Source: Bacteroidales bacterium
GTDB lineage: Bacteria; Bacteroidota; Bacteroidia; Bacteroidales; P3
NCBI GenBank assembly: GCA_024685285.1
Contig: JAIKVZ010000018.1
Location: forward strand, 1-64,000
Reading direction: 5' to 3'
Length of the DNA stretch: 64,000 bases
Of this stretch, positions 2,002-62,232 are shown piece after piece. The translations under genes and the position numbers were made by a program. The notes beneath the pieces were generated by a model. The model did no database searches, was not told the origin of the DNA, and was given only the letters and a program-made list of their open reading frames with translations. The stretch's first letter is position 1. The number at the start of each line of letters is the position of its first letter.

Positions 2002-2047
2002 GGTTAGGTTCGGGTTAAGGTCGGGTTGACATCGGGTAGGGGTCGGG
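2002..2047 (-). repeat. 11-bp-period element copy 1 (convergent IGR abiEii-like/clpC)
   Basis: C-strand: CCCGACCCCTA CCCGATGTCAA CCCGACCTTAA CCCGAACCTAA CC; TTGTTCGGA (minus strand) at 2063-2071, 15 nt away. Confidence 0.95.
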
Positions 2048-2130
2048 GGTGAATGCCCTGGCTCCGAACAAATGACGTATGTGGCCCCTATGTAGTGTGT
2101 TTAAACTATTGCGAACCAATGGTTTAAACC

Positions 2131-4755
2131 TCAATCGGTGTCAACGGTTGCGAGGTTGCTCTCGTTGATGGCTTGCGAGAGCTGCTCGGAGGTGTCGCCC
2201 TTGGCTATGTCGAAACTGACGCGCTCGTCGAGGTCGCTGCCTTCGGTGGTGACGCGAATGGTGTCGCCCGGCAGAATGTCGGCCTTGATAATCTCCTCGG
2301 CCAAATCGTCCTCAATATAACGTTGTATGGCGCGCTTGAGCGGACGTGCTCCGTATTGCTCGTCCCAACCTTTGCGCAGCAGGAAGTCCTTGGCGCGCTC
2401 GTCGATTTCTATGCCGTAGCCCATGGTGCGCACGCGGTTGAAGAGGCCGCGCAGCTCGATGTCGATTATGCGGTGGATGTCGTCGCGTTTGAGGCTGTTG
2501 AAATAGACTATGTCGTCGATTCGGTTCAGGAATTCGGGTGCGAAAGTCTTTTTGAGCGATTTCTCAATCACGTCGCGTTGCAGGCTGTCGCGCTCGGCCT
2601 CGCGTGCCGAGGTGTTGAATCCCACGCCGGTGCCGAAGTCCTTGAGCTGGCGGCTGCCTATGTTCGAGGTCATGATTATGATGGTGTTCTTGAAGTCGAC
2701 CTTGCGGCCCATGCCGTCGGTCAGCTGGCCGTCGTCGAGCACCTGCAGCAGCACGTTGAAGACTTCGGGGTGGGCCTTCTCGATTTCGTCTAAGAGCACG
2801 ATAGAGTAGGGCTTGCGGCGCACCTTCTCGGTCAGCTGGCCACCCTCTTCGTAGCCCACGTAGCCCGGGGGCGCTCCAACCAGACGGCTCACCGAGAATT
2901 TCTCCATATACTCGCTCATGTCTATGCGTATCATGGCGTTCTCGCTGTCGAAGAGGTAGCGGGCCAAGATCTTAGTTAGGTAGGTCTTTCCAACGCCCGT
3001 GGGGCCGAGGAAGAGGAACGAGCCGATGGGCTTGTTGGGGTCTTTGAGGCCGGCACGGTTGCGGCGTATGGCTTTGGCAATCTGGCCAATGGCGTCGTCC
3101 TGACCCACCACGCTGCCCTGCAGCTGGCTTTCGATGGTCATAAGTCTTGAACTCTCGTTCTCGGCAATGCGCTGCACTGGCACGCCGGTCATCATGGCCA
3201 CCACTTCGGCCACGTCGTTCTCCGTCACCTGGGCGCGTTTGTTCTTTTCGTCCTCCTCCCAGTTGCGTTTGGCTTCGGCCAAGCGGCTGTTGAGGTTGCG
3301 CTCCTGGTCGCGGTATTCGGCGGCTTCGTTGTAGCGTTTTTCGGCCAGCACCTCTTTCTTGAGCTTCTCAATACGAGCTATCTCTTGCTCAAGGTCGATG
3401 ATGTTCTGCGGCACCTCGACATGGGCAATGCGCACACGTGCGCCGGCTTCGTCGAGGGCGTCGATGGCCTTGTCGGGCAGCAGGCGGTCGCTCACGTAGC
3501 GCTCGGTGAGGGTCACGCAGGCCTTCAAGGCCTCGTCGGTGTAGGCCACCAGGTGGTGGTCTTCGTATTTGGGACGTATGTTTTGCAGTATCTCGAGGGT
3601 CTGCTCGGGTGTGGGGGCCTCGACCAAGACCTTCTGGAAACGGCGTTCAAGGGCACCGTCTTTCTCGATATACTGGCGGTACTCGTCCAAGGTGGTGGTG
3701 CCTATGCACTGCAGCCTGCCGCGCGAGAGGGCCGGCTTGAACATGTTCGAGGCGTCGAGCGAGCCGCTGGCGCTGCCGGCACCCACTATGGTGTGTATCT
3801 CGTCGATGAAGATGATGATGTCGGGATTTTTCTCAAGCTCGTTGATAACGGCTTTCATGCGCTCCTCGAACTGGCCGCGGTATTTTGTTCCGGCCACAAG
3901 CGAGCCGAGGTCGAGCGTCACTACGCGTTTCTTGAAGAGTGTGCGCGGCACGCGGCCTTGCACAATGCGCATGGCCAGGCCTTCGGCTATGGCTGTCTTG
4001 CCCACGCCGGGTTCGCCTATCAGTATGGGGTTGTTCTTCTTGCGGCGCGAGAGTATTTGGGCAATGCGTTCCAGCTCGCGGTCGCGGCCCACAATGGGGT
4101 CCAGCTCGCCGTCGGCTGCAGCCTTGGTCAGGTCGCGGCCAAAGTTCTCCAATGCCGGCGTGGCGCTCTGGCTCTTCTGGTCGGTGTGGCGGCGTCCTTC
4201 GGGCTGCTCGGGGTCGGCATAGGGAGCGTCGTTGTCGTCATCGCTGGTTTGCGAGCTGAAGTCGGGCAGCGAGGGTTCGCTGCCGCGTGTGGCCTCGTCA
4301 ATCAAACCCTGCTGGCCGGCCACCATCTTGAAAAAGCGGTCGTGGTTCACGCCGGCTTTCTCCATAAGGCGGGAAGCCATGTTGTCGGCCTCCATGAGTA
4401 TGGCCAGCACCAAGTGTTCGGTGCCTATCTCTTTGGCTTTGAGCTTGGTCGACTCCAAGAAACTAAGGCGCAGCACCTTCTCGGTCTGCCGCAGCATGGG
4501 CAACTCGGTGTCGTCGCTGAATTTTATGTCGGCGTCGGCCTGGCTTATCGACGACTCTATGCGACTCTTCATATCCGCCAAGTCAATGTTCATGGCGGTA
4601 AGCATGGCCACCGCCGTGCATTCTGGTTCGCGCAGAATGCCCAGAAAGAGGTGCTCGACGCCTATGGCGCCGTTTTTCAGCCTCAAGGCCTCGTCGCGGC
4701 TGTTGGCTATGGCTTTTTTAACGTTTTGGCTCAGTTTGGCTTCCATTTCAAACAA
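2131..4755 (-). CDS. clpC: ATP-dependent Clp protease ATP-binding subunit ClpC
   Basis: 874 aa; Clp_N repeats, two Walker A motifs (GEPGVGKTA, GPTGVGKT), UVR-like linker IEKLKKEVLAEKRYNEAAEYRDQE. Confidence 0.93.
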   Translation of the reverse strand: MFEMEAKLSQNVKKAIANSRDEALRLKNGAIGVEHLFLGILREPECTAVAMLTAMNIDLADMKSRIESSISQADADIKFSDDTELPMLRQTEKVLRLSFLESTKLKAKEIGTEHLVLAILMEADNMASRLMEKAGVNHDRFFKMVAGQQGLIDEATRGSEPSLPDFSSQTSDDDNDAPYADPEQPEGRRHTDQKSQSATPALENFGRDLTKAAADGELDPIVGRDRELERIAQILSRRKKNNPILIGEPGVGKTAIAEGLAMRIVQGRVPRTLFKKRVVTLDLGSLVAGTKYRGQFEERMKAVINELEKNPDIIIFIDEIHTIVGAGSASGSLDASNMFKPALSRGRLQCIGTTTLDEYRQYIEKDGALERRFQKVLVEAPTPEQTLEILQNIRPKYEDHHLVAYTDEALKACVTLTERYVSDRLLPDKAIDALDEAGARVRIAHVEVPQNIIDLEQEIARIEKLKKEVLAEKRYNEAAEYRDQERNLNSRLAEAKRNWEEDEKNKRAQVTENDVAEVVAMMTGVPVQRIAENESSRLMTIESQLQGSVVGQDDAIGQIAKAIRRNRAGLKDPNKPIGSFLFLGPTGVGKTYLTKILARYLFDSENAMIRIDMSEYMEKFSVSRLVGAPPGYVGYEEGGQLTEKVRRKPYSIVLLDEIEKAHPEVFNVLLQVLDDGQLTDGMGRKVDFKNTIIIMTSNIGSRQLKDFGTGVGFNTSAREAERDSLQRDVIEKSLKKTFAPEFLNRIDDIVYFNSLKRDDIHRIIDIELRGLFNRVRTMGYGIEIDERAKDFLLRKGWDEQYGARPLKRAIQRYIEDDLAEEIIKADILPGDTIRVTTEGSDLDERVSFDIAKGDTSEQLSQAINESNLATVDTD

Positions 4756-62103: not shown

Positions 62104-62186
62104 AACCAATAATGGCTAAAATAGCCAGACCGGACCAGTAAAAGTTCGGTCTGGTTCGCTTATAGTATGGGGTAAAACGGGCTTTA

Positions 62187-62232
62187 TCCGACTCGATACC
62201 GACCCTGACCCGACCTTAACCCGAACCTAACC
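62187..62232 (+). repeat. 11-bp-period element copy 7 (convergent IGR acyl-CoA ligase/HAD)
   Basis: TCCGACTCGAT ACCGACCCTGA CCCGACCTTAA CCCGAACCTAA CC. Confidence 0.95.

Follow-up and report, generated by a model that had tools for sequence, protein, structure and literature searches.

The chromosome of this gut bacterium carries arrays of 11-nt units, both direct and inverted, that form a helically phased dyad. They are found preferentially at the ends of transcription units and recur on average every 9.0 kb. The set of arrays could not be matched to described bacterial systems and looks like genome-wide protein-binding sites with a role in organising or marking the chromosome. Our preferred interpretation, to which we give a little less than even confidence, is that the element is bound, as double-stranded DNA, by an oligomerising protein and acts as a chromosome-organising anchor at transcription-unit ends. 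The nucleoprotein part of this explanation taken alone, that is, the predicted binding, we regard as very probable.

Array elements in the window

The window, a stretch of 64,000 nucleotides, contains seven array elements. The 24-mer CCCGACCTTAACCCGAACCTAACC is present without mismatch at all seven sites, whereas its chance expectation in the window is 0.00 (100 shuffles). The sole further match is an overlapping copy with three mismatches at 52898, inside the four-unit array. The sites and the one empty convergent gap are as follows.

1970..2089, minus strand: array element with inverted TCGG units, direct CCCGA units and a CTGAnnnCAG/GTTAT box downstream; 24-mer at 2002-2025; convergent gap 1883(+)/2131(-)
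10238..10357, plus strand: array element; 24-mer at 10302-10325; convergent gap 10074(+)/10385(-)
21829..21948, minus strand: array element with three direct units; 24-mer at 21861-21884; convergent gap 21809(+)/21989(-)
31651..31770, plus strand: array element at the alaS 3´ end; 24-mer at 31715-31738; convergent gap 31552/31810
37954..38073, plus strand: array element; 24-mer at 38018-38041; convergent gap 37925(+)/38139(-)
52845..52964, plus strand: array element with four direct units; 24-mer at 52909-52932; convergent gap 52826(+)/53009(-)
62145..62264, plus strand: array element; 24-mer at 62209-62232; convergent gap 62103(+)/62285(-)
45792..45875, no strand: convergent gap of 84 bp without array; flanking arrays 7.8 and 7.0 kb away

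The 24-mer at seven places had been part of the original prediction and was recovered exactly at each of them, in both orientations (minus at 2002 and 21861, plus at the other five). Independent gene calls bore out that seven of the eight convergent gaps in the window carry the element, the gap 45791/45876 being empty, and the profile agrees with the claim that the 11-nt units grow more variable away from the conserved end. The predicted length of 46 bp was too short, since the conserved part begins about 64 bases ahead of the 24-mer and ends about 55 bases beyond the first base of the latter.

Anatomy of the element

The 5´ part of the conserved element consists of in-phase inverted TCGG units and the 3´ part is CAT.TA....CTGAnnnTCAGnnnGTTATAT. 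A profile of 97 copies gives CCCGACCTTAA / CCCGAACCTAA as direct units and CYATYTA....CTGAnnnTCAGnnnGTTATAT as tail consensus, with the inverted TCGG units upstream. CCGA occurs in one phase modulo 11 in 319 of 332 cases, and so does upstream TCGG (98/102), in the same register as the direct CCGA units. In the relatives G123 and G141 the inverted TCGG is likewise in one phase with CCGA. Upstream of the units the GC/AT content oscillates with a period of about 10.75 bp, much more strongly than with shuffled phases. The common 11-bp register places direct and inverted units on one face of the double-stranded DNA over more than 100 bp. This register and the lack of RNA covariation strongly support the original suggestion that the array binds protein on one face of the DNA; the binding itself we infer, as well as oligomerisation of the protein and an organising role of the arrays. 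Outside arrays, the own genome shows no enrichment of single units.

Other types of element were considered and rejected. The array alignment contains no convincing covarying column pair and no Rfam covariance model matches in the window, so that a folded RNA element was rejected. A G-quadruplex or telomere-like repeat was suggested by the similar complementary strand GGTTAGGTTCGGG; the units CGACCTCAATACGACC and CCGAAGAACAA of other dialects have no G runs, thus these are not a conserved property. An integron attC site would be consistent with the RYYYAAC-like ACCTAAC, but the partner GTTATAT deviates from GTTRRRY, and the sites are dispersed and found in both orientations.

The palindrome YTGAnnnTCAR, which is part of the tail, is strongly enriched at gene ends, with 1.6 per kb in the convergent gaps of the source genome compared to 0.1 per kb or less for control palindromes; it is enriched too in some relatives without the array. 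Masked k-mers of the own genome revealed that AAATGTTAAA/TTTAACATTT is over-represented outside arrays (27 vs 0.8 expected), and it flanks several arrays, especially in G141.

Gene context

The source genome (G000) is a draft of 2.008 Mb in 61 contigs (90% complete, 6% contamination), the window being contig 12. With up to three mismatches, the 24-mer has 215 matches in the whole 2.008-Mb genome, the reversed pattern none. Array context was determined in 1.494 Mb of the 2.008 Mb using a simple codon-usage gene caller, the calls of which are imperfect; it yielded 157 arrays, 85 in convergent, 50 in co-directional and 4 in divergent gaps, 15 in genes and 3 at contig ends. The original claim that copies are located solely in convergent gaps is thus true for the window (7/7) but not genome-wide. 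Enrichment at converging ends was confirmed by the whole-genome tally per gap class: among gaps of 120-600 bp an array is present in 71 of 82 convergent and 46 of 197 co-directional ones, while divergent promoter gaps are avoided (3/94). Co-directional arrays are located at a median of 80 bp from the stop of the upstream gene and 200 bp from the next start. The gap rates together with this position near the upstream stop indicate that the element marks transcription-unit ends, most of all convergent ones.

A location at gene 3´ ends would also be expected for a transcription terminator, for instance a Rho utilisation site, where the RNA would be rich in C, poor in G and have a C cluster every 11 nt. 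The CCGA strand has this composition and an 11-nt spacing in G000 and G123, most clearly in G123 (CGACCTCAATACGACCCTAACCCCTCTTTAACC). However, the array is on the same strand as transcription in just 29 of 48 co-directional cases and on the opposite strand in 19 (p 0.19), which is not the strand preference of a Rho site. Intrinsic terminators occur at similar rates in gaps with and without arrays on both strands. An RNA would furthermore not need inverted units in a fixed helical phase, and termination leaves the spacing rule and the sense copies within genes unexplained. A function as terminator therefore appears improbable to us. A strand-specific terminator was likewise rejected, as hairpin terminators are not scarce at array gaps.

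The 15 arrays inside genes lie in frame. Since 16 control patterns gave 0 matches at four mismatches, the in-gene arrays are real and an origin by chance or composition can be rejected. Contig 5 contains a cluster of division and cell-wall genes with arrays within murE, murC and ftsZ. The neighbours of arrays are unrelated housekeeping genes without a common theme (alaS, clp, FolC, an AMP-binding enzyme and glycosyltransferase genes). An element acting in gene expression, such as a roadblock or a regulator site for each neighbouring gene, would account for the association with gene ends but not for neighbours of this kind, nor for a spacing that tracks chromosome distance instead of gene function, and is very unlikely.

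Spacing along the chromosome

The intervals between arrays (n=132) have a mean of 9.0 kb, a median of 8.3 kb and a minimum of 2.6 kb. Their coefficient of variation (CV) is 0.39 compared to 0.85 for a random choice of 3´-end gaps, the measurement being independent of gene calls and the null dependent on them. An exponential distribution is rejected (KS p 4e-14), and only 1 of 130 intervals is shorter than 3 kb, whereas 23% would be expected under random placement in 3´-end gaps. Convergent gaps of at least 100 bp are themselves less regular than the arrays (CV 0.74).

Co-directional and in-gene arrays occupy stretches without convergent ones. None of the 50 co-directional arrays is located less than 3 kb from an array of another context class (23% expected, p 3e-5), and the same is true for all but one of the 15 in-gene arrays (7% vs 50% expected, p 2e-5). 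Of the 14 larger convergent gaps that lack an array, eight have one no more than 4 kb away, and the longest array-free intervals contain few, very large genes. Intervals more even than the gene-end null and this filling of stretches reveal a spacing rule that acts in addition to the preference for gene ends. Such even spacing is not predicted by a barrier at every convergent pair, as suggested originally.

A similar picture was obtained for G123, for which context and spacing CV were taken from a 200-kb stretch: its 18 arrays, 12 of them convergent, have a mean spacing of 10.9 kb and a CV of 0.30 (null CV 0.92), with the closest pair 5.7 kb apart. In the whole G123 genome none of the 88 exact matches lies within 3.6 kb of another, where about 10 would be expected. 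G141 is too fragmented for spacing. A literature search revealed no bacterial element with comparably even, genome-wide and sequence-specific spacing, and we know of no such bacterial sequence element.

Dialects and retention in relatives

Among 149 family genomes, the array core is common to G000, G123 and G141 only. The dialect family is present at high copy in just three of about 120 genus members, thus its role is dispensable in the other relatives or met otherwise there. G123 and G141 are closest to G000 by alanyl-tRNA synthetase (82-83%), while other near-full-length matches of this protein reach at most 77%. The exact 24-mer has no match in named genomes; a looser pattern matches the relatives RGIG5037 and RUG14866, which are rumen assemblies. 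The dialect of G123 is CGACCTCAATACGACCCTAACC, with 324 matches at up to three mismatches, and that of G141 is GCCGACCTTAACCCGAACCRAACC plus variants.

Gene order is shuffled between G000 and G123. At orthologous 3´ ends the array is nevertheless kept in 10 of 20 array-adjacent cases, compared to 8 of 94 (9%) for the others. Positions retained across species include the 3´ end of alaS, where the G123 array is of another dialect than element 31651..31770, and the gap 5´ of a polyferredoxin gene. Within genes, the folC array is common to G000 and G123, the G123 copy having about 14 extra residues in frame, and the murE array is common to G000 and G141. In G123 folC (L224:17823-19199) the in-frame array adds the repeated peptide SGQGRVKV... 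to folylpolyglutamate synthase, and the gene is unbroken.

Many dispersed copies could also be produced by a non-autonomous mobile element (MITE/REP-like) that prefers terminators and is spaced by target immunity or because close repeats are selected against; target immunity of the Tn7/Mu type could space insertions. Such a family, which was part of the original prediction, is difficult to reconcile with in-frame FolC and MurE copies that leave the proteins intact and with sister-species dialect arrays at the same sites. In addition, flanks differ between copies while the units remain identical, no terminal repeats or conserved termini stand out in the profile, the arrays stay at gene ends across species despite the changed gene order, and their regular spacing is unlike random insertion. 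There is in our opinion little chance that the arrays are mobile elements; the MITE and Rho terminator readings both fit poorly.

Comparison with uptake sequences

The main rival of the anchor interpretation is an uptake or self-recognition mark similar to the DUS of Neisseria or the USS of Haemophilus. Here, a receptor or nuclease would read the array, and biased uptake or protection would spread and homogenise it. Hundreds of copies, dialects that follow relatedness, a preference for gene ends, in-frame intragenic copies and even spacing are all DUS/USS-like (PMC3630211, PMC7811141), and an uptake or self mark could likewise yield the even spacing and the dialects. Phage, plasmid and viral collections hold few matches, which would fit as well. 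ComEC is present in 11 of 12 genomes, but also in relatives without arrays. DUS/USS are single cores of 9-12 bp found about once per kb (PMC7811141), while there is one array per 9 kb and no scatter of single units over genes. Furthermore, DUS/USS are read by a type IV pilus system, and in the 12 genomes searched no PilB/PilT-type ATPase of type IV pili or T2SS (PF00437) scored over the cut-off. To our knowledge, no uptake signal is built as a phased dyad array with both direct and inverted units. We consider an uptake or self mark rather unlikely.

A possible role in chromosome organisation

Double-stranded DNA recognised in a fixed helical phase, about one site per 9 kb and compatibility with transcription-unit ends make a cooperative protein, whose nucleoprotein complex would organise the chromosome, the simplest reading. 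In the anchor interpretation each element would be a double-stranded site of about 120 bp for an oligomerising DNA-binding protein, contacting one CGA-containing unit per helical turn, direct and inverted, on one helix face. About 200 such sites would delimit chromosomal domains of about 9 kb, with anchors or insulators for loops or supercoil domains as the most likely role. Positive supercoils and moving complexes collect between converging transcription units. Transcription-driven supercoils and loop-forming complexes might thus favour convergent ends as array places, and transcription-unit ends, convergent first, would be preferred since promoters are least disturbed there. If no such gap exists within several kb, the array could be placed at a single gene 3´ end or in frame within a tolerant stretch of a gene.

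Clues to the protein were sought in several ways. Genes beside arrays in divergent gaps, considered as a sign of autoregulation, are metabolic and include no DNA-binding candidate, and the array-bearing species do not stand out by the size of their HU family. The SMC hinge domain (PF06470) had no match in 59 genus genomes; its absence is tentative since the same search also missed Caulobacter. The control Bacteroides ihuae had no match either.

Cohesin-associated regions (CARs) of budding yeast are spaced by about 10 kb. Like the arrays, they are sites at convergent gene ends, and such ends in yeast are anchors of chromatin loops (PMC7655110). CARs are cohesin-dependent and lack a sequence motif of this kind, whereas the arrays are strict in sequence. 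The parC centromere of plasmid R1 (ParMRC) consists of 11-bp direct repeats, which ParR binds on one face of the helix. The arrays have the direct repeats of about 11 bp in one helical phase in common with parC; however, parC is a single plasmid locus next to parMR, while the arrays occupy about 200 chromosomal sites and have another unit and inverted arms. REP/BIME are dispersed extragenic repeats, often between convergent genes. The arrays are similarly dispersed and frequent in convergent gaps, but REPs are clustered hairpin palindromes and the array is unstructured, phased, evenly spaced and present once per site.

It is possible, though we propose it with more reserve than the anchor role, that the whole chromosome is divided by phased anchor sites about every 9 kb, mostly at convergent gene ends, with a predicted oligomerising protein and a species-specific recognition unit. 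Such a system would be comparable to cohesin sites or to a centromere spread over the chromosome. If the arrays are anchors, the domain size would be written in the DNA of this bacterium. As uptake or self marks, they would be the first that we know of outside Neisseriaceae and Pasteurellaceae. Both outcomes would be informative.

Other 11-nt arrays in the genus

Different 11-nt arrays, among them CCGAAGAACAA, GCCGAACGCAA and CTATGGTAGGT, were found in other species of the genus at low copy, mostly in co-directional or divergent gaps and some with inverted arms; this set was partly collected with a CCGA-biased pattern. In the samples inspected, lag 11 was the commonest or joint commonest tandem period. 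These genus-wide arrays may share the same biology as those of G000.

Further 11-nt arrays were seen in G138 (L099-L102), in G110 and G065 (L091-L098) and in horse and goat gut assemblies (L286, L243). The longest have about 13 units, inverted arms are present in some, and most are located upstream of genes; the unit changes, the period stays 11. In G123, a near-perfect 11-nt array of 16 copies (L103:9605-9784) is flanked by a ruvA-like gene and a very long one, both assigned by eye.
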